64,000 bases of DNA. Origin: Onthophagus taurus (lineage: Eukaryota; Arthropoda; Insecta; Coleoptera; Scarabaeidae). The position numbers and the translations under genes were made by a program. Location: the NCBI RefSeq assembly GCF_036711975.1, contig NC_091976.1, forward strand, positions 19,902,001 to 19,966,000, read 5' to 3'. The notes under the pieces are model-generated. The model searched no databases, had not been told where the DNA came from, and worked only from the letters and a program-made list of their open reading frames with translations. Shown here piece by piece: positions 31,401 through 52,289 of this stretch. Every line of letters begins with the position of its first letter. Within the stretch, counting starts at the first letter, position 1.

Positions 31401-32006
31401 GAGGTTAGGTCAGATTTCTAATAAATTGACAGATTGAGTTTAGATTGAAGGATAACCAACTTTAAAAAAAAATAATTTTAGTTAATTTGAGAGAATTAAC
31501 CTAACTCTTTGGAGATTTTTGCAATTTAACTTACCTAAAATGTACGATTCCCCCCCATTTTTAACAAACGATGAAAACCGATTCAAACTTTTCTTCGTAA
31601 CAGTTCCTTTAGAATCAAAATTGGCTTCTGAAATATTATCATCGTTATGTTGTCTTCTATCTTCGATGTTTGAATAAATGTTTTCATTCCCGTGTTGTGA
31701 TGGTGTATCGTTATCCCAATCGGAATCTGAATCCACAGTGCTATAACGTTGATTTTGGTTAGGTTCGAATTCTGTTTCTACAGGTGGTGGTGGTAAAGCA
31801 CAAGCTGGGGGAGGCGGAATATTATCGATCTTTTCAACGTAGCTTTCAGGAAATAACCCCGATTTTCCAATATTGTTTAAACCTTCCCACCATCCTTCTC
31901 CAACATCTAATCTTGTGACTGTAAGTATTTCACCAGCGATTATGGATAATTCGGAAGTATTGGGTTCTCCGGAAAAATCGTATAGTACTCTAACTTGGAA
32001 AGACAT
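28499..32006 (-). CDS. SH3PX1: sorting nexin SNX9/18/33 family (SH3PX1-like)
   Basis: Two coding exons, 32006-31535 and 29613-28499, join in frame (1,587 nt, 528 aa). Residues 1-60 form an SH3 domain ('[16 protein letters not shown]', then EGWWEG and FPESYVEKI). A linker with PPPPA and acidic/Ser-rich stretches follows. A conserved GGESYILG at the exon junction precedes the PX domain ('[15 protein letters not shown]' and '[11 protein letters not shown]'), then a helical BAR domain to the C terminus. SNX9-family proteins bind phosphoinositides, curve membranes and couple endocytosis to dynamin and WASP-Arp2/3 actin assembly; fly SH3PX1 is the single orthologue. A 5' UTR intron (about 32045-32105, GTAAGT donor) lies just upstream. 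The coding intron holds hairpin and tandem repeats. Confidence 0.94.
29825..30730. repeat. array of palindromic TCTAGTTCTAGGTCTAGTG / TTTAGCCG hairpins
   Basis: At least five modules in either orientation. Each has an arm made of CTAGAACTAG, CACTAGACCTAGAACTAG and CATTCGGGTTTAGCCG, a short centre ACGTCTCTCAAGA, and the reverse-complementary arm (CGGCTAAACCCGAATG, TTCTAGTTCTAGGTCTAGTG). Clear centres lie near 29935, 30045, 30175 and 30595, with weaker ones near 30290 and 30435. RNA or single-stranded DNA would fold into long stems. The arms themselves are internally repetitive on a CTAG theme. No coding capacity. All inside the nexin intron. Confidence 0.88.
30868..31500. repeat. three tandem ~217-bp repeats reaching the 5' splice site of the SH3PX1 intron
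   Basis: The marker GTAAGATTTG[C/T]AAATATTAATC occurs at about 30894, 31112 and 31328, and TTTGAGGTTAGGT[C/T] and AATAAATTGACAGATT recur once per unit. Units are about 90-95% alike by eye. The last unit ends in GAGAGAATTAACC about 35 bp from the donor of the SH3PX1 first coding exon. Confidence 0.88.
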
Positions 32007-32989
32007 CTTATCGTTTTTTTCGCATTTAATTACGTGGGTGTATTCTAAAAAACCATAAACGTCAAGATATCATAACCTCAAAGATATCCTATAAAGAGAA
32101 CTTACTGTGTTATCGGTATGGTTTTCTTGTACAATTACACTTTAATTTAACACTTAACTCTTATATTATGGTAAAATTGGAAACTTTTTAGCGCTTTAAG
32201 GATTATTTTAATTAATAATTAGTTAAAATGTTGAAAACAAATAAAAACGATTCGTTCTTTATAGTTGATGATTCATCGGTTGGTGGCGCCGTTATCGGTA
32301 TATGTCACTTCACTGTCATTTTTTCATTTGATTTGAAGTTTAAAAATACTAAATTTATAACAGGAAGGTTGTTTATTAATGTTTATAAACTTATGTTGGT
32401 CGTTGTTTAATCGATTTAATCGTTTAAATCGATAAGGTTCTAAGAAAAATCAAAATTTAGAAATCGAAAAAAATGTTTGTAATCATGACGTAATTCGCTC
32501 CACATCTGTGTGGGCGAATATATTTTTTTAATTTAAACGCCAAGGATTTATACTTAGAAATATCTATGACAAATATAGTATTTAGATAATCTCTTTTATT
32601 TAATATTTAAACATTCTAATCGCCTGATGTTTTCCTCAAGGCGAAAAGTAAATAGTCTATGGCCTTGAAATTAGATTAAAACGTTTCATATTTTTTGGCA
32701 ATCGTCTTAAAAAGCAAGCAATTTCATTTCAAACGTTTTTACACGAACGGTACTATAATAACATGATAAGATTATTTCGTTATCGTTGATAAAAAACAAA
32801 ATCGGCGCGTTTTTTGTTTTTACTCGTCATTTGTTTAGTTTTTGGCCGTCATTTGTTTTTGTTTTTTATTTCGAAACGGTGGCAGTGTTTAAAATTAAAA
32901 TTACTCCTAATTTTAAATAAAAACTCACCTACGTATAAACTCGATGTTAGCCTTGGGTTTATTTCATCGTTAGTCGCTTAGTACTCGGT

Positions 32990-33095
32990 TATAAAAGGGA
33001 AAATGTCACAGAAATCGATCACTAAAAGACCGAGAACGGTTTGTTCCCCGGCAAGTTCTAAAGTTGAAGTAGGCGTTTGCGGACAACGTCTATAA
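32990..33095 (+). promoter_or_regulatory. TATA-like box followed by a 30-codon basic open frame
   Basis: TATAAAAG (32990-32997) is a good TATA match in the 1.4-kb gap between the nexin and troponin I. Only five bases later an ATG opens a 30-codon frame (33003-33095) beginning MSQKSITKRPRTVCSP. A TATA box would normally place the start site beyond that ATG, so the peptide may not be made. The local GC content is higher than around it. It may be a fossil promoter or gene piece; I do not recognise it. Confidence 0.25.
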
Positions 33096-33399
33096 GATTG
33101 AAAATGGCGCTTTTCAGGATCAAGTTCCGCGTCTGTGCGAAGAGTTTTATTTGATATTTAACGCGTCCACATGCCAACTATATTTAGATTACGTAATTGT
33201 GTACGTTCGCTTGCAAAAAAATAAGCCTACCGCATCAGTTTATTTAGTCAAATAGAAACAATAATAAGAAAAAACTTACAAAATATTATTTTTTATTTAA
33301 ATAACATTCAATAAATTTAATATACAATAGAATATAATTATTAAATAATAATAACTCGTTGTCATTTTCGTTTTTCGATCTTTTTATTATAGTCTTTCA

Positions 33400-36300
33400 T
33401 CACGCTGCAGCTGAAAAATATTCTTTTTGTTATTAAAAATAACTCATTTCAAAGTCTTTTTGTTTTTACCTTCCACTGGTGGAGCTTCTGTAGGTGCACT
33501 TTCTGCTGGGGGCGCTTCTACCGGCGCTTCTGCTGGTGCTTCTGCGGGAGCTGCTTCAGCAGGAGCAGCTTCAGCGGCCGGGGCTTCTTCAGCAGGTGGT
33601 GCTGCTTCTGCAGGTGCTGCTGCTTCTGCAGGTGGTGCTTCTGTCGCTCCTTCAGCGGGAGCTATTTTTAATATTAATAATTCTTAGAATTTTTTTTTTC
33701 AATTTTGAGTTACATACCTCCTTCTGCAGGTGCAGCAGGGGCAGCTTCACCTTCAGCTGGTGCAGGAGCACCTAAAACAAGATTATTGTTAACGAATTAA
33801 GTTAATCTCCACCCTGGATAGCCTTATGAAACGCCTAAAACTAGCTGGTTTTAAAACCGTTGGCTATGCAGATGACCTGGCAATCCTCATTCGATGGAAG
33901 TACGTCAATGTACTCCTTGAGAGGATGCAGAAAGCACTCAATGTAAGTGAGAACTGGTGTAATCCCTCTCCGTCAATCCGAAGAAGACAACCCCAAATTG
34001 CCAATGCTCGCTAACACTCCACTTAAACTATCTACAGAGGTTAAATACTTGGGCTTAATTTTAGACAGCAAGTTAACGTGGAAATCCCACCTAGATAATA
34101 GAGTAAAAAAAAATGTGTCTCTTACGGCCGGTGCCGCAGGGCTGTCGAGAGGACGTGGGGCTGTCCCCCAAGGTAGTCCTATGGATTTACATGGCTGTAA
34201 TCCGACCAATGCTAACTTACTGCGCGGTGGTATGGTGGAACAGAACTTCTAAGTCCACCGCCATCGCCGCACTAAATAGGATACTACTCCCACCGCGGTC
34301 ATGGAAGTCATGCTTAACCTGCCACCACTACATATTCAGGAGGCGGCGCTGGTAACCATGAAAAGACTACAATCGGTAGGAATCATGAAGGATGGGGGCG
34401 TTGGCGGCAGTTCGACACTCTGGAAGGGGGCTGTGCTGGACTCACCCCTACTCGAGTGTAAGGCGGACTGCTTGCCAGTAAAATACGTTTTCTCAAGAAA
34501 TTACGGGGGTCTTTTTCCATCATCCTCGAATACGCCTCTCGGAACCTCTAGGTAAAGGTACCTCCAATATAAGCCTCCATACAAGCGGAACGGATGGCTA
34601 TCAAACTTGCTGCTGACTATATTGTTGACTCCAACGAATGCGGTAAGGCAATGTGTTTTAGCATTAAGCAGCGTTAAGATAACGTCTGCACTAATAATGG
34701 ACTGCCATCTAGTACTGAAAGAAGCCACGAAATACAATCGTGTCACTATCCAATGAATCAAGGGGCACTCCGGCTCTACGGATAACAAACATGCGGATAG
34801 ACTGGCAGAGCGTGCTGCCAGCAGAGTTCCCTGTGCACCCGAGCCGGTAATTACCCCTTCTTTAACTACTCATATCAACATGATCAAGCACATTACCCGC
34901 AAAAAATTCCTAAACGCGTGGGACAAAATCCACCTTGCTAAGGATTTGTTAAAATCTCTTCGAAAATTACCGCTCAGTTTTTCGTAGGGCTTGGAAAAAA
35001 CGCCCTCCGGTTAGCCACAGGTCTCCTCACGGGACACTATAAGGTAAACAAGCACCTTCACAATTTGAAGCTTGCAAACTCTCCTCTCTGTCGAGCCTGT
35101 GAACAGGACGACGAGACCGCTAGACACATCTTGTGTCATTGTCCCCTCTCTAGCAGACCTTAGAAAGAGGACCCTCGGGGAGGCATGGCCGACCACAGAT
35201 GATATCAGGAACTTACCTCTGAGTGATATTCTGGCCTTCGGTAAATCCCGAAGATTGTACCAGATATTGTACAAAAAAAAGTTAGATAACACTTTAACGG
35301 AGAAAGTATGAGGCATGGAAGGATTTTTGTGAAGATCTTCTCTAATGTGATTTGTCGCTATAAGAAGGTTCTAGCTTCCGGACTAACGTGACTATATTCA
35401 GTCTAAACCAAATCACAGAGAAGACAGTAGCTACAGGGAGAGCAATATATCTCCTATTTGTGGATCTTACCAAGGCATATAACACAATTTCTCAAAAAAA
35501 TTGGCGGCAAGCGCTATCGGAGACGTCAATAAATGTCACGGTAATCAAGGCGGTACAAGAATTATACAAAGGGGTAGCAGCAGCAGTACAGATAAACAAA
35601 CAAATATCAGAAAGCTTCGCTTCAACACTATCTTCATCCCCGTGGTGCTGTACGGATGCGAAATCTGGCAATTAAATAAACAAATAGGGAATCGGCTGCT
35701 GGCAGTTGAACTGGATTTCTAGAGAAGAGCAGGTTTCAAGACTAAACTAGATTGAGTGCAAAATGTCAACACACGAAAGATGATGGGGCGCAAATAACGA
35801 TAGTCGACGAAGCCCAAAGAAGACATCTCCATGTTCAAAGAATAGGTCCAGGAAGAATCCCGAAGAAACCGATGCAATGGAGTCGAACAGAAAGAAGTAG
35901 TAGGGGACGCCCAAAAACGACATGGGCATCGGGGATAAAGAAAGCGATGTCCGAAAGAAACCTGGTACCAGGGGACTGAGAGGACCGCAAAGGTTGGAGG
36001 TTTTGCAATCGGAAGGCGAAAACGCTATAAACCGAAATTATATATATATGTACACACTTGCTACGCACTTCACGCATATGACTGTGCGCTAGCCAAACAT
36101 ATTTGCATGGAAGTAAAAATCCGGTTAATCAATTAATACATTACACCATTTAAATCCTTATTAGCCTGCTTTAGACAAGGTGTTGGTGAGAAATCACAAT
36201 GAACATCATTTCCAAATCTGCTAAGAAAATGTTTCGATCAATTAAACTCTCCGTGCTTCTACTACAAACAGCCATATATCTATTGACTCTATAACTATCT

Positions 36301-39300
36301 TCGTTATTAATGTTGTGGCTGTATAAAGAAGTATTCTTAAGCAAAGAATCGTTAAGTTAAAACCAAGGGCGAAAAAGATAGTGTCGGTATGACCAATTTC
36401 AAATTCTTGGCAATTGTAGACGATTTGGAAATCTAGACAAATAATCTAGCATACTTTTCGACAGCGTTAGGTTGCACTTGATATAGGTGGTAAGAAAGAG
36501 AGCTTTTTTGTCAGTCTCCCAAATACTGCATTTGTGTACCTAAACTTCCTAATACTCCATTCAATTTATTTAGTATCTTCATGTCTCTTTAGGCAGCACG
36601 TTAAAGTGGAACTCACACGTTGAAAATTGAATCGATAAAACTTGTGTTGTTCAACACAAGTTTCTCAGAGTTTAACCATGTCATTTCAAAGAAACTGAAG
36701 AGCTAAGTCTCTCTCTCTGGATACTCCTTATACTATCAGAACACGTATTTATTAATTCTCTACAGCACATACGTTTCAACATAACTCCTTATACTACTTA
36801 AAGTGGACGACAAAGCATTACTCGATAGTTTGTATGTTACACGTGTGGTTTAAACAACCTCCCATCACTCTATCTACATATACGGCGGAGATAGACTACG
36901 TTTGGTGAGATTTATCAACAAGGAAGTCAATAAGACTTACTTAGCCCTCTGTCTTGTATTTGTATATTAACTTCTTTGAAGCACCTGTTAGGTATTACAG
37001 CCTTCAAAAAGCATTAGTGGAGCGGTATCAGAATCAGAAACGCACCTCTGAACTGCATCTTGACTTAGGCGATCTTTGGATCTTTGGATTTGTTCCATTA
37101 AATATACCGCGGGCTAATATAATGAAAGTATGCAGAAAATTATGAATTGGTATGAATAACGAGTTAGTTGTCTAAAGAACTTTTAAGAAAGTCCTGGGTT
37201 GAAGCAGTGCGGAGGAGGTCTTACCAAATGTGCTTTAAGATTAATCATAAAAATCCTACCTGGACACTGTGAGATGAAACAATAAAATAAATCTTATGCC
37301 ACTGGCAAACGTGAAGGGAATATCTCTAGGTTGGTTGATGTAGTGTAATGTGAGGATGTACTTTCACTTATAGTATACCTATACCAAGCAGAATGTAGAT
37401 ACAATAGCAAATATCATAAAATTATGATTGGGGTACCTAACACTGGAAAGGTGGACAACGATAAATGGCGATTAAAGCGATTAAAGATGATAGATATACA
37501 AAGTATGTAGATATGAGCGGGATTTGATGACACATTATTATTAACTCTATTTAATATACTTACAACTAACATATATACTGCGGTGAGAAGGACAGGGGAA
37601 GGTATATGACTTTAATTGAATTAAAAAATTATATTTGTAATATATAAACATTAAGTTATAATGCTCAATTTCTAAGAAATGTTACCTTATTTAAACAGTC
37701 TATCTATTTATCTATATGGACAATGTCATCTGTGTATTTACTGTTGCATTTAGTTTACTTTTACTGTTTAATAAGGAAATATTTATGTTTATTTTTATGG
37801 TTATTTATCAAGGATTTAAGTTACTTTGCGATATAGACTTTTCACTAATATGAACAATGAAGGAGGAAAGTTTTTAATCTCAATTTTGTGTGAGGTTTAA
37901 TCCTTTAATGAAAATGAATGAAACAAATCCACAAATACTTTTTATTTATTTATTTTTTAAATGACCCATAAGTTCTTTTGTGGGTATTTACACCATAGAC
38001 GTAAAAAAAAACAATTGTACAAACATTTATTAGATGATAACCACATATAAATTACGATTATGATTCTTCGACGATCAAGTAATCATACATACCTTCGGCA
38101 GCTGGAGCACCTTCTGCTGGTGCAGCACCTTTAATTTTATTATAAATTTGTAAATTTTAATCTAATTGTAAGCTCATTTGATTGTATTATTACCTTCAGC
38201 TGGTGGGGCTCCTTCAGTTGGTGGTGCACCCTCAGCTGGGGGAGCACCCTCAGCGGGAGCGGCTCCTTCTGCTGGAGCTCCTTCAGCTGGTGGTGCTCCT
38301 TCTGCGGGTGCCTCTCCTTCAGCTGGAGGTGCGCCTTCGGCTGGAGCTGCACCTTCAGCTGGAGGAGCTCCTTCTGCGGGTGCTTCTCCTTCAGCTGGAG
38401 GTGCGCCTTCTGCAGGAGGTGCCCCTTCAGCTGGGGGAGCTGCTTCGCCTTCTGGTTTTGGTTCGCCTTCGGCTGGTGGAGGTGCTTCGCCTTCTGCGGG
38501 TGCTGGTGCTGCTTCGCTTTCAGCTGGAGCAGCTGCTGCTTCAGCTGGAGCTATTTTTTTTTATATTATAATTTGCTATTGAACATATTTTCAAATTTTT
38601 TTACCTTCTGCTGCGGGTTCTGGTTCATCCTCCTAAAGGAAGTTTAAGATTTCCAAATTTGATTAATTTGATTCATTTTAAGGTAACAAATAAGGATGGT
38701 GACGAGAAGACAAGGTAACAAAAGACAAAAACGCACAAGAATAATTATTTATAACGTACTTAATTTATAAATAAGGTTCCAGACACAAGAAGGGGACGTA
38801 AATACATAAGGAGTTCGTGCAAAACTACTTCTTTAACATTCTGTTTTTTTTTTAACAATACAATTGTATTACAAAATATACGTCAAATCTTCAACATAAA
38901 TTTACAGATATTAATAAGTAAGGAGATGGGTGCTTCATGCCTCTGCTTCTTGTACCTTCTTTTCGTCCTTCTTGGTCCAATCTGGTTTTTTCTGTAAATA
39001 TTTCGAAAAAAATAATTAGCAACTAACAACTAATTTTTAACGCAATCTAATTATTATTAATTGCGTTAAATTGTTGGTTCAAAAACGTTAAATGTGCCCT
39101 TAAAAAAGAAAATTCAAAATCTGTGCAGATTGTGTAACAAATCATGTAAAAATGGATTATTTATTATTAGGTGTACACCTCGTGCCTACTAAGTAATACT
39201 GGAATGAAATTTGGTGCATTTTAAAAAGTATATAAAGAAAAAGTCTTTATAATATGTACAAATTGCGTGTAGTACCGATTTCAGCGCGGCGCCAGCTTCA

Positions 39301-42300
39301 GCCTTCTGAAAAAAACAATTAAAACAGAAGCGATTTTAGCTTGGTAGACATAAACAGAACAAAATTAGATATAGAGGCGAGATTTTTATATGCTGAAATC
39401 ATGCGAATGCAAAGCTTTGTAGCTCACCTTTAACGTTATAATAGAAAAAAAGAAGAGAGCAAAAAATAGACGAAGAAATTGTATTAGACAAAAAATTAGA
39501 CGACAAAAAATAGTCATAAAGTAAAGAAAAAATTACTCGAAGAGCAACAAAAAAAATTTAGCAAGAATTGATTTAATAATCATGTTTTTTTCTTTTTAGA
39601 GTTTATTTACACCTTATAACATATATTAAAATAGCGGTTTTTTTTTTAATTTTCTGCTGAGTTTCAGAGTAAAATAAAAAGTATCTTTGCTTGAATCATC
39701 CTCATTTCTTCTGCCAATCAGCTTTCTCGGCTTTCTTTGTCTGTAGAAAAACATTACAAATTGGACAAGGGGAACTAAACTATTAAAAACACTACGTTTC
39801 TAAACTTAAATAACACCGGGTTAACTGAAGGTAACCAAATTTAGAAACTTGTTTTTCTTTGCTCGATTAAGTCAGATGATTACGTCCACAAAAATCTTGC
39901 CAAGAGATCTTGGCAAAATAACTTACAACAAAGTAACCAATTCTAAATTTGGAATGATTTAAAGTTTAAAAACGTAAATCAACTAATTTACATGAACTAA
40001 ATCATATTTACATAAGGGAAACACCAAAAATGTCATAAAAAAAATCTCTGTATAAATACCTCTTTATCCTCTTCTTCAAGGGTGAACTCCTTCTTCTTGA
40101 CGACCTTGAGTTGATTACGGAAGTTGAATTCAGCGGCTTTCTTTTGAAGTTTAGCAAATTTGTTTTCGTATTTCGAAACCTTTTTCAATGTTGGTTTAAC
40201 GCTGTATTGACAAAAAAATTGATGATTATTTTAGATTATTTTTTTGTTAAATGACTTACAATTTGCCTCTTAGGTCGTTTACTTGGCTGTTCAAGTCGGA
40301 AATCTAAAAAATTTGTTGATTTATTATTATTTGTTTTATTTAAATTGAAAAAAAAGTTTTAATGAAGAATATAATGGTTTTTATAAGACTTTGTTTTATA
40401 AAATTTTGCTTAATTAATGTTTTAAGAATATTTTGGCAAACAAAATTTTGAAGAATCGGTAGATTAGGTAAATTTTTCAGGAATGATGAGTGGAATTGCA
40501 ACACTGTATGTTGTAAAAATCTGATTTGGCCACATTTAGCTGATTACATCATGCCTAAATAGAAGTGTTGAAACAAATGTCATCAATGTAGCAAGATTTT
40601 TTCGTTTATGTCGAGAAACTTGTGTTGGACATAAATTGCATGCAATAACTCGGCAATATAACTTGTTTTGACAGAATGTATCTCCTCTTTTAACATAGTC
40701 TCAAACACTAAATCAGATTTTTTTGTTTTGGTTAAGATATCTTAAAAATCCGACATAATGGATCGATTCTTAGTTCTGATTTAAATCTAGCTTGTCAAAA
40801 ATCTTCAGAAACTTTAAACTATGTCTTGTTCCATCTCATAGTGCAGTTAAATCACCGCAGCCAGTCTCTTATTTGAGATAGGACCAATCTCAGGCAGAAC
40901 CTGATAGGACGTGATCATTACCCACTTGTCACGGTGATTTATAACTATACTTTTAGTTTAGTCTTATAAAAATCATTGAATAAAAAATAAAAATTTTTAA
41001 TAGAAGTGTTAAAAGTTATGAAGATATAAAGTTTACAAAGTTAACACTTCTATTTAAAAAATAAGACAATAACAATCATGCAAAAAGTGGTTGGTGATGT
41101 GTAACTACGACAAAAACAAAGTAGAAAAAAACAACACTGGATAAAAAACAACACGCAGCCAATTTAAGAAGAGAAAACAAAAACAATGACATTAAAATGT
41201 GGTTAATAGCTACTAGAAAATTAGTTAACACATAAGGTTTCTGTTAAATAAGAAAATTGAAACTAGAAATATATATGGTTATGCGCGATGCTTAAACATA
41301 ATAAAGAATAGGTCTATAACAGTATGTAGATATGGAAAGGTGAGGCTCTACTCTCTAATTTTTAAATCGAAGTGGAAAATCTAAACAAAATGCTACATTA
41401 ATTAAAAAAAACAATGTCAAAAACAAAAGTATGTACAGTATACAGCCCTGGAGAAATATCAAAAATTATAATTATTTCTCGGTGTAAAAAAGACGGATAG
41501 AAAAACGACGCTTTTTTTTTAAATGCCGCTGGTCTAAACACAGCTTTATTGTCCCTTATCGACAGAGCATTATACAAAAAAGGCGTAGAAATACAAAAGA
41601 AACGGGAACAGAATCTGCCATTAGATACAAAATCGTACGACGAAAACTGATAAAAACAAATAGAGAAAAAAATTAAATGAACATATAACTACTTCTACAA
41701 ACTCTCTCGCTTTCTACACAAAAAAGTTATCCACAAAAAAATCTGATTAACAAAACAAAAAATATGTTTGGGGGATGATCGTCTCAAGCATGGCGCTTCG
41801 AACTTAAACTTATTTTTTTTTTTAATTGTTGCAGGTTCCGAGTCCAGAAGTCGCTTCTTTACGTTTGAGTAGCGATTTGGAACGTCTCTCACTCTCGCTA
41901 TTTTAATCCACAGTTTAATTATTTTAAATGTACATCCAATTCAGTTTCCGCTCGTAAGCATGAAGGGCCATGCCGTAGAGGTGAGAGGGGAACAAGCAAA
42001 AAATCCATATTTTGTTAATCAGAAATCAAAAAAATTTTTTTTATCTAAAATTCTAAAGCTGCAGGATTGGAAAATGGGGTTTGGTTTTGTTTGTCTTGTA
42101 CATTTTTTCTAGGTATAGGAAAAAACTACTGCGTCATCATCAGTTAAATGTGTGTCTACAAGCTCTCAACGTGATGAAACTATGTACAAATGGGGAGCTG
42201 GTTTTTTTACCATGGTTGTGCTGGTTAGTCGTTATTAAAAATCTGTGGAGTTTCTTAATGTGGAGGGATACGGCGTAACACTTCATGTGTTTATATGAAT

Positions 42301-45300
42301 TAACGTAAAAAAAAAACACCTCAAAAACAATTTTTAGGAGGTTACGAGTGAAATCCGGGAATTAAACGTATATAAGAAACTATCTATTAATTTTTTTTAA
42401 AAAATTTTGATTAAGATTGTTTCTTATAAATGTTAAAATGGATTTTTTGATGAGAAGCTGTTAAACTGTCACTCGAACACGGAAGAATTGAGTGTGTCTT
42501 TTGGGATATTTTTTTTTAATTTTCGTTCGATCGTAGGACTCTTTTTGTAATTAATACCTCCCAGTCGCGCTTTCGGACTTCGCGTTCCAAATCCCACTTC
42601 TGCTCTTCGCAAATGTACATGCGTTTGTAATAATCCTCCAGGATCTTCTTGAGCGTTCCTACAAACAACGGGAATCGGAACCAAATATCAGCACTTTGAT
42701 TAACTTTAAGCAAAACACTCTGTTCCCTTTTTTTGATAACGATAAAATTTTTGAATAGGTACAATTTTTTTATTCATATACAAAAATTTCCTGTAAAGTG
42801 ATCTTAAATTACAAGTACAAACATTACTAACTAATTATATTGGATGATTTGTTTTTGAAAGAAAATTTCATAGTAATATGTTTCTTATAAATTAATTAAA
42901 TTATTATTTAGAATGTCATTTGTAAATAATTTAATAACATTTAGAAGATAAAATGAAGTTGAAATCATCTTGTTTACTTATTTGCTTATTCAACATATCT
43001 TTGTGATAGAGAATGCTGCGGCTCACTCGAATTCTGCTCATATTAACATATCTTCTACAATTTATTCACAAATTTTTCCACAAAACTTTTGCAAAATACT
43101 TGGGGCAGCGAAAATGGCCAAAATGTGTTAGTGCATCAAAGGTTACATTACATCCCAACAGACTTATAAGGTGCAAACTTATAAGTTGATTTTGATACAC
43201 TGCAAACTACATATCACTGCATTGGTTTATGGCTATTACTAACTATATCTTTTTCTGACAAACATTTTATTTTCTGGCGAAACTCTTATAGGTTGAGTTG
43301 AATTTTTAAAAAATTTTAATTGGGCTGTAGAGTACAAACATCTATTCTTCCTTAGATCTATATCTAATCAGATAAGGTAGAGACACCATTCTTTCATAGT
43401 TTGAAAACATCATTATCTTGCCACGTCACTGCCAAGGTTGAGTGTAGGAAACCAAACCAATAATCAAATATACCACATTCTTTTTTGGAGGTCTTTATAA
43501 TCTTAAATTACATATGCTGTCATATCTCTCGAGATGTCATAGTTGATCTTATGCCCATCTGTTTTAGTTAAAAAGGAGTCGAAATAAAATTTGGAAAGCT
43601 AAAGGCAAAGTATAGAATTGCGATCTACGTCTATCCGGATTATATTTACCAACGCCAAACTAGTGGGTCAACATATAAAAGAAAATTAAGGTCATTTATA
43701 TGCACAATGTCATCTTGTATTAATATAGATAGAGCTACATTGAGATACTAAAGAGTCAAACAGATGTGGAGTACAGATTCAGTTAATTATCGGTCAGGAT
43801 TTATCTGCTTAATCATTCTTGATGCTGATTTGGCCATCATGAGTAATATCAAGCAGAGATGACAAAATCAATCACCGTCACCTGAGCTGATAACCATGGT
43901 TAAAAAAATAACTGCCGAAAACATATTGTGCAAGTTAATTCCTTGTCATGGTGGCAACTGCGAAGCAGGTCAAAGATGGCACTCGATAGAATAATGTCTT
44001 TTGCCAGCATGAACACCGGTAGCTTCCTGAATAATACTTGGGGGACCTAGAAGCCAGACTGGTGTGCTTTCGCAGAACTAACTGTAAAATTATATACATA
44101 TAAAACATAGATTTAATTGAGGGAGTCATAAAGATGAAGGGTTTGAATAAGATAAACTATAAACGAGAGAGTCTGATTCTAGATCAGATGTTATTAATCT
44201 TTCCTTTCAAGTGATTCTGTATTCTATAAAAGAATTAGGTTGAATGATTTAGTCATCAATCCAGTAAAGTAATTACTTGGAGGTGATAATCGCCTTGATC
44301 ATAATCCCCATATTGAAAGTATCAATCCCAAGACAAAATGAACGCTATGGCCAATAGTCTTCTTGGACTTTATGCCATACTTTGAAAAAATGTGACTTCT
44401 CTTTTTTCCTGCCTATAACTTGTCTAATAAGGAATGTGGATGAGATTACGGCACTAACTACAACAAAACGCTACATGAGCCACACCTTACATACAATCCC
44501 AAAGTTATCAAATGCTTAGCTGGTTTCGTATAAAGCCTCTTTTCATATTATTAATGTTATAGCTGAGGTTTACTCAACATTGTTTTAGCAATCAATATTG
44601 ACTTAGCAAATTAACAAAATTTTTAGGAAACACATTTACATAACTTTTTCATTCAATATCATCCAAAATAATTTCTTAAATAGTAAGGTTTGTATGTAAA
44701 ATTTAAGAACTACACTAATATTTGCATATCATTTTTCTAAAGCTTTCTATCTATTGAAAATAAATTAATAACCTTATTAATAACATAATATTTCATATTT
44801 AATCCTAATTATTTTTTTTGTATCGATAGATATGTATCCATGGCTGAATTTGTATAAATATATTGATAAAAAGGAAAAAAAAATAGGTTTTAATTTCACC
44901 ACAGTCTTTGGTGGAGAATAATGTATCTTTTTTTTTCTAAAAAGAGAGTTTTCTTTACCTAAGCAGTTTATGTTTCGCGTAGAAACAACGTAGCTGGCCA
45001 CATATTTACAATGAGGCCTCCTTAAATAGGCGATCTATTTCGGGATTTTTAAAAATACTAACATAGAGAACTGGGAATTCGGTTTTTTGGGCGCGACCCA
45101 GAAATAGATCGCGTATTTATGGCCTGCCCGTAGTTAGATACTAAAGAAAAAATCTCTACTCTGTAAAATTCAATTAATAAAATTAAATATAAACTTCATT
45201 CGGATGCAATTTGTATAAGGTGTGAACTAATTCTTTGGTAATGAATTGAAAAAATTAAAATTAAATAAAAATGTTGACTATTTTCTTGTACCTCATACGA

Positions 45301-48300
45301 TTTACATTTCTCTATCCATTCTAGGTCAAATTTATCTCCTTCTAGGTCTTTAATTTTGTTCCAATAAGTTTGACAAATAGTTTGTAGTTCAGCTAGAATA
45401 AATATATAATGAATAATCTTTGTTTTTGATTTGAATAAGGATTTTTGGTGGTTTTTCATTTTTTGTTGGTTTCTTTGGTGAAGTGGATTTGGATATTTAG
45501 GATGTTTTTTTTAAGCTAAGCATTAAGCCTAAATGTATTTCTAAGAAAACAATCGAGTGAATCTCCCATTTGGACCGTTAAGAAAAAAAATTGTGTATGT
45601 ACACCATTGATATTAAACATATATCAAAAAAAAATTAAAAAAAGGACAAATACAGCGCCTATTGAAAAAAAATAACAAAAATAAAACGAACACGTTGTGC
45701 GAAAAAGCTTTTACGCCCTGTGCTTAATCTCTGTTTGAGGCTTATGCAAAACTCTTTAATTTATCATTTAATCGTGTTTCCTTCTACCTGGAAATCTCTG
45801 AACTCGACTTCCTTTTCCAAGTCGTATTTCTCATTTTCCAATACCCCGATTCGTTTGTAGTACTGTTCGCAGTACCCTTTAATACTCGCTAGAAAAAGTT
45901 TTATAGAAAAAAAGAAAACGGTTAATGATGATTTTTCATATTATTTATAGAGAGTAAACGTGGTTGGGGTTTTGGGGCTTTTCCTCGATTTTCCTATCAC
46001 CTTTTTTCGAAGTTGAAATAAAATAAAACTAAAAATTAAAATTAATTTACGAAGAAGAAATAATGAAAAATGGGGAATTTATGCAAACGTCCTGATTTTG
46101 ATGAGAAATCTTTTTTTTTATTTATTCAGGATGATTAAACGTGAGAGAGAGAGCTCAGAGGTATCTTGTTACCTCATGAACTAAAAATACGATTTGGCAT
46201 GGTAAACAAGAAGCGTTGCAAGCATGCCATTCAAAAAAAAGAAAAGCCCGCGATAACCGTTTTTTTTAAATTTTATATCTTCTTATTGTTGCTTTATTTT
46301 TCATAAAGAAATCTAAAAATTCATGCCGCAATGTTTTAAAACAGGGTGGTAGCGATCCATCAAAACGTCAATTATTAAAATGATTAACAAAAAAAGTAAA
46401 AAAAATTAAAGAAAAAAGAAAGAAAAACTCGAATATAGGCCGTGCACTGATTTGACAAATTGTTACGTAAACGTAGCGGGGCTAACCTCTCCATCTTTAA
46501 GGCGAACCAAGTACTCCAAATCGTACTTTAAATTCTCCAAATTGCAGATTTTGTCATTGTAATTCCTGCAGATAGATTTTAGGCTTTCTACGGGGAGAGA
46601 AACACCAGAAAAGGTTGCCGTTTAACAATAGTGTACTTTATCAGGACAGAGAGAAAGAAAAGAAAAAAAAAGATGGATCGAGATATATTGTTGTAGTTAT
46701 TGTTTGTCTGTGATGGAAAAGTTTTTTTTGTTGAGTATTTTTTTATTGAACTGTTTGTGTGTGTATGTGTATTAGAAATTTAAAAAAATCTTATTTATTT
46801 CAAAATAACAAAACAATTTTAAGTTGATTTTGAAATAAATTAGATTTAATTTTTAAATTTTTTTGATTTTTAGAAATGAAGAGAGAAATGAAGATACGTC
46901 TTTTGAAAGAAAAATGAAGCTGGTTCAATCCTACCTTCATTGGCGTCGTCGATGAGTTTTGGTTTTCCGCAACGTTCCTCAATGATGCGTCTACGTTCAG
47001 CAGCTTTACGTTCTTGTTCTTTCTTCAATTCCTCAGCGGCTTTCTTTCTCAACAATAACTATATTCGAGAAACAATACGTTGATTAATGATACTCTTTTT
47101 TGATATAACATATTGATTTTTACCCTAAGCTTCTTCTTCCTTTCAGGTGTCATGAAACCCTTCTTGGCCTTTTTAGCTTTGGAGGCCTCTTCCATACGGG
47201 CTCTCACCTCGGCCCTTTTGCGGTCGATTTCCGCCTGCTTCTTCTTCTTTTCCTGTTAAAAACATAATTATTTAAATATTGAATTTTGAATCAAAATGAA
47301 TTTGTGGTAGAAAAAAGGTGATAAAACCTGCGTAAGGATTGTACCTCATCGATCTTTTTTTTCTGAAAGAAAAAAAGAAAAATTAAATTAGTTTTTTTAT
47401 TTTATTATAGATCAACTTTTGAATACGAGAAGACAAAAGTGTTTGTTTTTGCGTAGTTTTGTGATAGATGCAAATATTAAAGTTGCCGTGAGATGGTAGA
47501 AGGCACCATGCAGAATACATGTCATATCTAGAAAAAGAATGTTTTGCCACAAAGGTAGCAAAGTGTGGCTGCTCGATTTACAACTTAGGGGATCATTAAT
47601 TGATCTTGGATTTTGCTAATATTACAAAATTGGCAACAAATTCGTTCGACATTTTGCTGTGTGGGAAAAAATTACAAGATGTTGAAAGTAAAGCTGATGT
47701 GACTGGACTTAAGAAGAACGTTTACTATTCAGAAGTATTCCAGAAGTCAGCCTGTGAGTCCTCGAAATGGTCATGTTTCCTTTGATTGTCAGAAGCTTGA
47801 CAAACCTAACTAAAGGAATTTAATTAGAATGCTAATGTAAAATTTTTCATGACTAGGTCAGGTATGTAGAAAACAGAGGACACAACACATATCAAAACTT
47901 GATACAATGCATAAATTTGGAAATGATAAAACGTGTATTGGGAATGCTTGTGAAAGACTTTGCCAGAGGAAATATTAGACAACTTGGACAACCAAGTCAA
48001 CAACAAAATTTCTTTTTATAGATACACCAGAGGTCTAGTTCTCAATAAAAACGGGATCCATACACTAACCTCTTTCATGCTAACTTAATATATAGATCTA
48101 CAAACACAAAGAACTTATAATCCAATATAACAAAATCCCTATCACAGAAGATCCAATATGCAACGTAAAAGGTCTTATAATACCAATATAGTACAAATAA
48201 AAAATATGTTGTAATCTCATTATCATAGAAATTGCCATCTCTAAGAATATCAACCCAACCCAAACACTCATCAGACCACCACTCAACTATTTAGCCAACT

Positions 48301-50154
48301 AGTCATTTATTGAATGCTAATCGATAAACTTGTCCAAATCCAAACCCTTGGAGTAGAACGTAAAATACTCCCTCACAGCAGCTATAAAATCCGTAATACG
48401 CTAAAATAACCATTCAACAACTCATCCCTCCCATATAACAACAATGAGACAAAATTGTATTCATTACAAATACGCAGTGAGACCGAGAACACCATCGGAA
48501 GAGACACTGACGCAGATTGCAGCCAGCTGAAGGAAGACTATGAAGCAGCTTAACGATCTTGCTGAGGAGAGGGGAAACTTTGAAAAGATGGATCCGAAGC
48601 CATCTCTCAATGCCAGGTTGGGTACTCTGGGGAAGAGAAAGAAGAAGAAGCAATTGTAGATAACTTGGAAAAGAGAAATAGTCATATGAATATGTTTTTA
48701 CCTTAACAAAAGGCATAACAAAAGTATTGGTTATCCCACTAATCGTTGGCGGGATCCAACAATATATATTATATAGAGTGCATAGAAGTTTCTTATTGGT
48801 GCAATATGAACTTTGAAATATGTGGATTATTGGGTTCGGTGTAATATTTACATAAATATGTATATAAAAGATTTAATTGCATAAGGATGAGAAGAACGTT
48901 GTGGAATTGAACGAAATTGACCAATATCTAGAATCGAACTATGTGAGTTTATATTCCGTCGTTGTGCTTCCTATACATAATGTCATGAAACATTATGTAT
49001 AGAATTTGATGATGGCAATTGAAGAAATAAAAGGAGACGAAATATTTATCATGATTATAAATGATCATAAACAGTTAGAATGAAAGAAATTGGATTTGCT
49101 TGGAATTTTCATAATTCCACAGACACAGTATACTCATTTTAGTGTATATTTAGTTTAAGTGTATATGAGAAAGGTTTGATGTGTTCTGCCATTTCCGGTT
49201 GACCGATTTAGCCCAAAATTAGATGCAGATCTACGATTTTCGTGTAATAGTCATACATCAAACGTCGTCACCACGGATAATTGCGGTTTTGAGTTATCGT
49301 GTTTGTTTTTACTCTTTGATGCAGTACTAAAAATAGTCTAAATGAATTCAGAAGCCATCAAATGGAATATATGATGGATTCGAGAACTTATGTAGACGAT
49401 AGATTGGGTATAAATAGCGATACAAATTTAGAGAGTTAGTAATGGACATTTTTATGTTACTGAGACAGAAAATTAAATTTGTTATAGGGATGTAGAAATG
49501 TAGGAGGTAGTTCAACACAATCAGAATGCGCCATGGTATTTAGCTAGCTTAAATTTTAGTAAAATCTATGTTTGTTATGTAACTTTTTATGTTTCACGTG
49601 CTAATTTCGTTAAATTTTACTTAAATTTGTTTTTGGACATTCTAATATAAAGAACTCCATTTAAAAACACTTCTTATCTCCTCATATCCAATACCGTTTG
49701 AACTTGTTAAGTTAATTTGTGGTTTAGTTATGTAAACTACTAACTACTTTTAAAATATGTCTATTTAAGCTTTTTTTTAGTAATCGTTAAAAATCGAATA
49801 TATTCTAAAATAATATTAGTACATCGATCATCTAAGTAACTTACAAAGTACTCCAAATAAGTCAATAAATATGCCAAATATTTCTACAGAAGCTATAATA
49901 AAGGAACCAAAATTCTACTATAAAGGGAAATAAGAAAAAGTAATCCTTGAAATCCGTTTTACTTGGACCCAGGATCAATTACATTGATACTTTGGAGCAC
50001 ACTCTGTATAATTACCTTTTTTTTACTTTTTAGTTGTTCATCTCTGGATATCGTAGATTATACTAGAATAAATAGAGAAAACAATAATTAACACTAAAGA
50101 TAATTTAAAAAAAATGTTATGTTTAAATCCTTACCTAACCTCATCATCCGCCAT
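33400..50154 (-). CDS. wupA: troponin I (wupA orthologue), many alternative exons
   Basis: Core exons in order: 50154-50140 (MADDE), 47362-47345 (KKKIDE), 47252-47124, 47058-46935, one of four alternative exons (46587-46487, 45888-45788, 45392-45292, 42658-42558), 40303-40260 and 40201-40060; 573 nt or 191 codons before the C-terminal choice. Landmarks: '[20 protein letters not shown]', '[12 protein letters not shown]', '[20 protein letters not shown]', then '[14 protein letters not shown]' and '[20 protein letters not shown]'. These match insect troponin I closely. Terminal options give about 203 aa (exon 39740-39702), 209 aa (38991-38935) or about 428 aa (Pro-Ala-rich exons to 33400). Troponin I holds tropomyosin-actin in the off state and, with troponins C and T, makes muscle contraction calcium-dependent. 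The MADDE exon uses a weak GTTAGG donor; a GTAAGG five bases on would break frame. A 5' UTR exon ends at 50472. Confidence 0.95.
33820..35385 (+). mobile_element. non-LTR retrotransposon (RT, RNase H, Cys-His tail), decayed
   Basis: The plus strand carries '[14 protein letters not shown]' (RT catalytic YADD), 'SWCNPSPS'-like text after a shift, '[16 protein letters not shown]', a second-domain region, then '[20 protein letters not shown]' and a CXXC...HX4C-like tail ('[19 protein letters not shown]'). Gene order matches R1/Jockey-like elements with RNase H. Several shifts and stops make it inactive. It lies antisense in the intron between two Pro-Ala-rich exons of troponin I and abuts a second element at about 35388. 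Confidence 0.82.
35388..36030 (+). mobile_element. second non-LTR reverse transcriptase fragment (RTE-like)
   Basis: It reads '[19 protein letters not shown]' then 'LTKAYNTI' and '[16 protein letters not shown]', the central RT, skips the catalytic region, and resumes with '[14 protein letters not shown]' and, at about 35850-35990, 'RIPKKPMQW' and '[20 protein letters not shown]', the family's tail. Two frames are needed. It differs in sequence type from the element directly upstream, so two insertions met here. Confidence 0.78.
36031..38092. other. troponin I 3' intron; no further feature seen
   Basis: AT-rich sequence between the retroelement fragments and the 36-nt Pro-Ala exon. Several short plus-strand open frames occur but match nothing. 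A TATATATATG run is at about 36041. No tandem or long inverted repeat noticed. Confidence 0.4.
38935..39740 (-). other. alternative carboxy-terminal exons of troponin I
   Basis: Three acceptor-led segments follow the common exon ending EEEDKE. Exon 39740-39702 encodes [12 protein letters not shown] and stop. Segment 39305-39276 would encode [10 protein letters not shown] with a GTACTA donor (30 nt, in frame; least certain). Exon 38991-38935 encodes [18 protein letters not shown] and stop, or ends early at a GTACAA donor (38956) to continue into the Pro-Ala-rich exons. 'KKPDW' is the typical insect troponin I end. AATAAA on the minus strand at 39607-39602 would serve the first form. Confidence 0.75.
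42660..45290. other. 2.6-kb intron between alternative exons; no gene
   Basis: AT-rich intronic DNA separating the most 3' alternative exon from the other three. Apart from the hairpin at 45015-45124 I see no repeat or coding element. Its length, compared with 395 and 600 bp between the other alternatives, sets the last exon apart. Confidence 0.45.
45015..45124. repeat. imperfect hairpin in troponin I intron
   Basis: Arms GGCCTCCTTAAATAGGCGAT continuing to CTATTTCGGG (45015-45044) and CCAGAAATAGATCGCGTATT continuing to TATGGCC (45097-45124) are imperfect reverse complements around a loop of about 50 bp. It lies about 170 bp from the alternative exon at 45392-45292, on its downstream side in the transcript. 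It may be a MITE relic. Confidence 0.55.
47600..47790 (+). repeat. dispersed repeat with '[12 protein letters not shown]' coding text, copy 1
   Basis: Plus-strand frame includes '[20 protein letters not shown]' and 'TGLKKNVY'. A closely related copy lies inverted at 54140-54310. Both are short and truncated, so the parent is probably a transposable element, but I do not recognise the protein. This copy lies in the first large intron of troponin I. Confidence 0.6.
48720..50130. other. troponin I 5' intron; no gene seen
   Basis: Intronic AT-rich DNA. Muscle genes of this type often keep enhancers in the first introns, but I see no motif cluster here that I would defend. A CATTATGTATAG word occurs twice near 48980-49005 as part of a short inverted repeat. 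Confidence 0.35.
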
Positions 50155-51825: not shown

Positions 51826-52050
51826 CATAAAGCTCATCATAGAGTCATCTATGACTATGATGAGTCTATGTAAATCTATATGATAAGTCTATGTGAGTCT
51901 ATATAGAGTCTATATGATGACTATGAGTCATCGATGACTCATCAGAAAGTCTATCTAGCTGAGTCTATATAGAGTCTATATGATGACTATGACACTGTAT
52001 CATAGAGTCATCGATGACTCATTATAAAGTCTATCTAGCTGAGTCTATGT
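51826..52050. repeat. tandem GAGTCTAT/GATGACTATGA satellite-like block
   Basis: A block built from GAGTCTATATAGAGTCTAT, ATGATGACTATGA, GAGTCATCGATGACTCAT and AAGTCTATCTAGCTGAG. The longest unit, about 95-100 bp, occurs about twice, with shorter repeats before it. GAGTCATCGATGACTC is itself a perfect palindrome. Confidence 0.8.
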
Positions 52051-52289
52051 GATTTTTTTTTAAATTTTACTGTTATATCATTTTTGTTGTAATATTTAAG
52101 GTATTTTAATTTATTAAAGTGATGCATAAATAAACACCCGGCGCATCCACCATTACGTTACTCCAATTTCATTCTCCATAAAAGCACAAATATAAAACAT
52201 TTTATAATTATTCTAATTTAATAAGTCTACGACTATTAACCTTTATCCTTTATATGTACTTTCTCTATTTCTGCAGCTTGTTTTGTTAT

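Follow-up and report, generated by a model that had tools for sequence, protein, structure and literature searches.

In winged insects other than Diptera, passages of the published work place a Pro-Ala-rich tail on troponin I (PMC4657346, PMC5581462), and the tail is proposed to have moved to tropomyosin in the dipteran ancestor (a passage of PMC5581462). Lethocerus troponin H is described in like terms (in part of PMC6726838). With the antibody MAC143, the tail has been found on flight-muscle troponin I in cicadas and other winged insects, a beetle being added through Shimomura 2016 as cited in the passages used. The heavy forms are reported there at about 70–80 kDa, and a GESGAGKT-like motif is ascribed to the extension (passages of PMC5581462). 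Judged by title, none of the papers listed was devoted to mapping the exons of a beetle heavy troponin I, which is not proof of absence, as subscription journals were thinly covered and the listing held the best rows.

We analysed a window of 64 kb (the whole stretch of DNA presented here, bases 19902001–19966000 of contig C11 in an assembly of 291 Mb and 33 contigs). Positions 33000–55000 were read on the minus strand and a gene model was built by script. The window contains a complete troponin I gene, whose coding exons run from 50154 to 33400 on the minus strand with AG/GT edging the internal exons (Table 1). The spliced model matches the Pfam family Troponin (PF00992) over residues 50–179 with an E value of 3.6e-38 and a score of 131.3 bits (cut-off 26.2). 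Searched against solved structures, it matches cardiac and skeletal troponin I chains over residues 17–199 (best E 1.5e-16); 19 distinct sequences match at E ≤0.001, of which four are troponin T. The gene is an insect troponin I of the wupA type. Our main reading, to which we give a probability of roughly 0.92, is that it has an alternative 3' end encoding a heavy isoform of the troponin H type. A troponin I gene with a heavy-tail option is real but ordinary, a known kind of gene.

Table 1. Features of the troponin I locus in window coordinates.
Feature	Position	Strand	Remarks
First coding exon, MADDE	50140..50154	-	ATG; donor GAG/gttagg, phase 0; coding part only
Exon KKKIDE, 18 nt	47345..47362	-	AG/GT, phase 0-0; in frame, skippable
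Exon ending KKLR	47124..47252	-	AG/GT; troponin core, PF00992
Exon ending DDANE	46935..47058	-	AG/GT; PF00992 match here in genome profile search
Alternative exon 6a, 101 nt	46487..46587	-	Same length and phase as 6b, 6c, 6d; frame stays open with this exon alone
Alternative exon 6b, 101 nt	45788..45888	-	Same length and phase as 6a, 6c, 6d; frame stays open with this exon alone
Alternative exon 6c, 101 nt	45292..45392	-	Donor GAG/gtacaaga; same length and phase as 6a, 6b, 6d; frame stays open with this exon alone
Alternative exon 6d, 101 nt	42558..42658	-	Same length and phase as 6a, 6b, 6c; frame stays open with this exon alone
Core exon	40260..40303	-	Spliced model, AG/GT, PF00992 match
Core exon ending EEEDKE	40060..40201	-	Spliced model, AG/GT, PF00992 match
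Short alternative terminal exon	39702..39740	-	AATAAA at 39607 after it
Cassette exon, 30 nt	39276..39305	-	Phase 0-0
Ordinary terminal exon	38935..38991	-	Internal donor AAG/GTACAA after 38956, leading to tail
Tail exon PA1, EDEPEPAAE	38605..38632	-	Phase 0 in, 1 out; in-frame stop directly upstream, without Met
Tail exon PA2, 357 nt	38194..38550	-	Phase 1-1; repeats of APPAEG type with a six-residue period
Tail exon PA3, 36 nt	38093..38128	-	Phase 1-1
Interspersed repeat, transposon-like	34000..35253		Inside PA3-PA4 intron; minimum extent (query ended at 34000)
Tail exon PA4, 54 nt	33718..33771	-	Phase 1-1
Tail exon PA5, 192 nt	33470..33661	-	Phase 1-1; PAEA-type repeats
Last coding exon PA6, completing AAA-stop	33400..33410	-	Phase 1 in; TGA at 33402-33400

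The Drosophila troponin I gene has four mutually exclusive central exons. Exons 6a–6d share one length and one phase, and each of them, used singly, keeps the frame open to the end of the model. They fit the insect troponin I set of mutually exclusive central exons, with use of one at a time predicted from these features. Upstream of the coding region, at about 51830–52070, short imperfect repeats around ATAGACTC and GATGACTC were seen by eye.

Downstream of the core exon ending EEEDKE, the gene offers in order a short terminal exon, a cassette and the ordinary last exon. Inside the latter, the donor AAG/GTACAA at 38956/38955 joins the core to the tail, and PA1 enters in the phase 0 that this donor gives, as originally predicted for a tail joining through an internal GTACAA donor. 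The same hexamer opens the donors of the KKKIDE exon and of exon 6c. AATAAA signals follow the last tail exon at 33388, 33297, 33244 and 33151, and nine further copies lie in the introns between the short terminal exon and the last tail exon. GCATG, TGCATG, TGTTTGT, TGTATGT, TGTTGTT and GTTTGT, which we counted over 33300–40400, are splicing-factor motifs. Compared with the expectation from base composition, GCATG occurs four times (4.6 expected), TGCATG is missing (1.4), TGTTTGT occurs four times (0.8) and GTTTGT four times (2.4), while TGTATGT and TGTTGTT are both absent (0.7 and 0.8 expected). All four TGTTTGT copies fall in the PA3–PA4 intron and none lies beside donor 38956. In Drosophila wupA, a fibre-type splice event that was tested is reported to depend on Bru1 (passages of PMC8742874).

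Spliced at AG/GT, the six tail exons give 678 nt, equal to 225 residues plus TGA. The tail is made up of 90 Ala, 56 Pro, 48 Glu, 22 Gly, three Thr, two Ser, two Val, one Asp and one Lys. This agrees, almost to the base, with the original prediction of six in-frame minus-strand exons rich in Ala, Pro, Glu and Gly. Two junctions that it named, 38956 to 38632 and 38093 to 33771, are likewise in phase and flanked by AG/GT at the sequence level. All five joins within the tail are of phase 1. The repeat structure is periodic, with an identity of 0.52 at a period of six residues and 0.46 at 12, compared with 0.18–0.30 at the other periods between 3 and 15; PA1 is an adapter outside the repeat proper. 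In the heavy model (428 residues, calculated mass 44.8 kDa) a basic core with a pI of 9.8 is followed by an acidic tail with a pI of 4.05.

We infer that core and tail are joined in a transcript and expressed in flight muscle. If the donor at 38956/38955 is left unused, translation would continue for six more codons to a TGA and yield an ordinary troponin I (about 25 kDa). With the donor in use, the core would be spliced to the six tail exons to give the heavy troponin I, or troponin H. By analogy with published work, the core would bind troponin C, troponin T and actin, and the acidic, probably disordered tail would project from the thin filament in flight muscle. There it may help to order the filament lattice and may offer a binding site to other proteins, for example glutathione transferase. 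Because PA2–PA5 are all of phase 1-1, leaving out any subset of them would preserve the reading frame. That different muscles are served by tails of graded length, between 12 and 225 residues, seems to us an unlikely alternative to one heavy form.

As in Lethocerus troponin H, known to us here by its published description, a C-terminal Pro-Ala-rich extension of 225 residues runs in frame with troponin I, through the donor at 38956. The arrangement published for Lethocerus, cicadas and other non-dipteran insects matches that of the present gene (passages of PMC4657346, PMC5581462 and PMC6726838). The tail on troponin I is also what the locus has in common with the MAC143-detected proteins of winged insects, cicadas and one beetle among them, although those are proteins and ours is gene anatomy. 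Two differences stand out from the passages available. The reported heavy forms of about 70–80 kDa exceed the mass calculated here, and the tail contains no copy of the GESGAGKT-like motif, unlike the extension described in part of PMC5581462. It is doubtful that this motif is a defining feature, since other passages define the extension merely as Pro-Ala-rich or Pro-Ala-Gly-Glu-rich.

The heavy tropomyosin of Diptera likewise bears a Pro-Ala-Gly-Glu-rich tail on a thin-filament protein, as far as the passages used describe it, but there the carrier is tropomyosin. In the present assembly, the tropomyosin family profile gave nine matches, six of them over the cut-off and all on contig C10 within 5908809–5926340; little weight can be put on the three weak matches by themselves, as the family also appears below the cut-off in five of 14 prokaryote control genomes. 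No stretch rich in Ala, Pro, Glu or Gly was found in the 40 kb around these genes (5896001–5936000) with windows of 25 or 15 residues; the 25-residue scan recovers PA2 and PA5 in our window, whereas exons as short as PA3 would escape it. The dipteran feature of Pro-Ala-rich exons 3' of tropomyosin was thus not seen in the 40 kb scanned. Moreover, when 116 tail residues were searched against the whole assembly at protein level (E ≤1), 14 matches were obtained: PA2 and PA5 themselves, plus 12 of lesser strength spread over C16, C2, C3, C7 and C5, with none on the contig carrying the tropomyosin genes. Three of the tropomyosin matches (profile positions 1–79, 38–83 and 83–217) lie within 0.9 kb at C10:5925444–5926340 on the plus strand, forming a compact gene; the tropomyosin gene next to it, on the other strand, is spread out.

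The Troponin family matches the assembly four times, twice in the troponin I gene, and none of the 14 control genomes. Of the two remaining matches, that at 8.92 Mb on C10 is troponin T rather than troponin I: for its frame of 84 residues, the match to chains of troponin T reaches 1.9e-13, compared with 2.1e-6 for the best troponin I. The other, at C14:74328–74651 on the minus strand, exceeds the cut-off (6.4e-4), but its 339-residue frame reads by eye like a retrotransposon endonuclease; it is evidently a chance match arising from a coiled-coil-like stretch. A profile search in which each exon is scored separately revealed no further troponin I gene in the assembly, and such a gene is likely absent. 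As no tail-like stretch was seen in the 40 kb around the tropomyosin genes and the search gave a single troponin I locus, the gene anatomy supports a Lethocerus-type, troponin H arrangement rather than a dipteran one. In line with this, the prediction of a troponin-H-like isoform of troponin I was borne out by the gene structure, the tail-free tropomyosin neighbourhood and the single troponin I locus found.

Alternatively, the tail exons could be part of another gene, or of a transcript of their own, located 3' of troponin I on the same strand. We consider this very unlikely, even though 4.3 kb with a transposon-like repeat separate PA4–PA6 from the exons before them. A Met codon is missing from all six exons, in-frame stops stand 3–31 nt upstream of every one of them, and read-through beyond the ends of PA1–PA5 meets a stop after 6–33 nt. 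The open frame therefore closely matches the exon limits, and the exons show no translation start of their own, a start that the original prediction had named as evidence against itself. PA1, moreover, accepts phase 0, which is the phase given by the troponin I donor, and the published insect arrangement is identical (passages of PMC4657346 and PMC5581462). Equally improbable is that the exons are remnants whose frame is still open while the heavy isoform has been lost, for example in a flightless lineage. All splice sites and frames are intact over six exons and 678 nt. Between PA2 repeats 18 nt apart, the mismatch is 0.22 at the first codon position, 0.23 at the second and 0.53 at the third, as expected of maintained coding, with a contribution from codon composition. 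In PA5 the same comparison shows the bias weakly (0.39, 0.40 and 0.53). The bias is clear in PA2 at lags 18 and 36, and weaker there at lags 15 and 33. It fits a tail kept at the protein level, part of it being yielded by codon composition alone. This lag comparison of repeats took the place of the entropy of PAEGA units by codon position, which we set aside, since positions 1 and 2 are already fixed once units are picked by their amino-acid sequence.

The least credible explanation, with a probability we regard as negligible, is that the open frames next to troponin I arose by chance or from low complexity. The repeats are GC-rich, and the strand opposite PA2 is open as well (38193–38456, plus strand), where an 88-residue PSAGGA-type repeat is a by-product of the GC-rich repeat. 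However, a six-frame scan for 25-residue windows with at least 80% Ala, Pro, Glu or Gly and at least three Pro found 197 in the real 64-kb sequence, antisense frames at the tail locus included, and none in any of 20 second-order Markov shuffles. The signal is not chance, and the phases of six exons all match. We therefore retain the reading of a troponin I gene with a heavy, troponin-H-type 3' end.

Our analysis contributes an exon map with its switch donor, a set of symmetric, skippable tail exons and an intron bearing a transposon-like repeat, together with the options of the short terminal exon and the cassette. The result is a complete coding-exon map of a troponin-H-type gene in which one donor is the switch point between short and heavy forms, and such a map makes the tail's move to tropomyosin easy to score in other genomes. 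The original prediction had also held that the locus bears on when the extension moved between thin-filament genes. The tail exons do lie in the troponin I gene here, but nothing new follows on the timing; the question is unshifted, as troponin I was already reported to carry the tail in non-dipteran insects (passages of PMC4657346 and PMC5581462).

The intron between PA3 and PA4 measures 4.3 kb. When positions 34000–36050 were searched against the assembly, at least 75 matching pieces with 68–97% identity were obtained on many contigs, with 40 of the 500 candidates scored. Each of the 75 falls in query positions 798–2051, corresponding to window positions 35253–34000, which places a transposon-like repeat between two tail exons. 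Across this intron, only phase, composition and splice sites link PA4–PA6 to the gene. No Pfam family was found in another five open frames from the window, of which four lie in the same intron. In the assembly, telomere repeats were uninformative as to the order of the insect: (TCAGG)5 has no match, and (TTAGG)5 has three overlapping matches at one place inside C3, compared with 11 for the reversed pattern. On the 3' side of the troponin I gene, an open frame of 195 residues on the minus strand (31482–32069) contains an SH3 domain (Pfam SH3_9, E 1.9e-9) and is probably an exon of the next gene.
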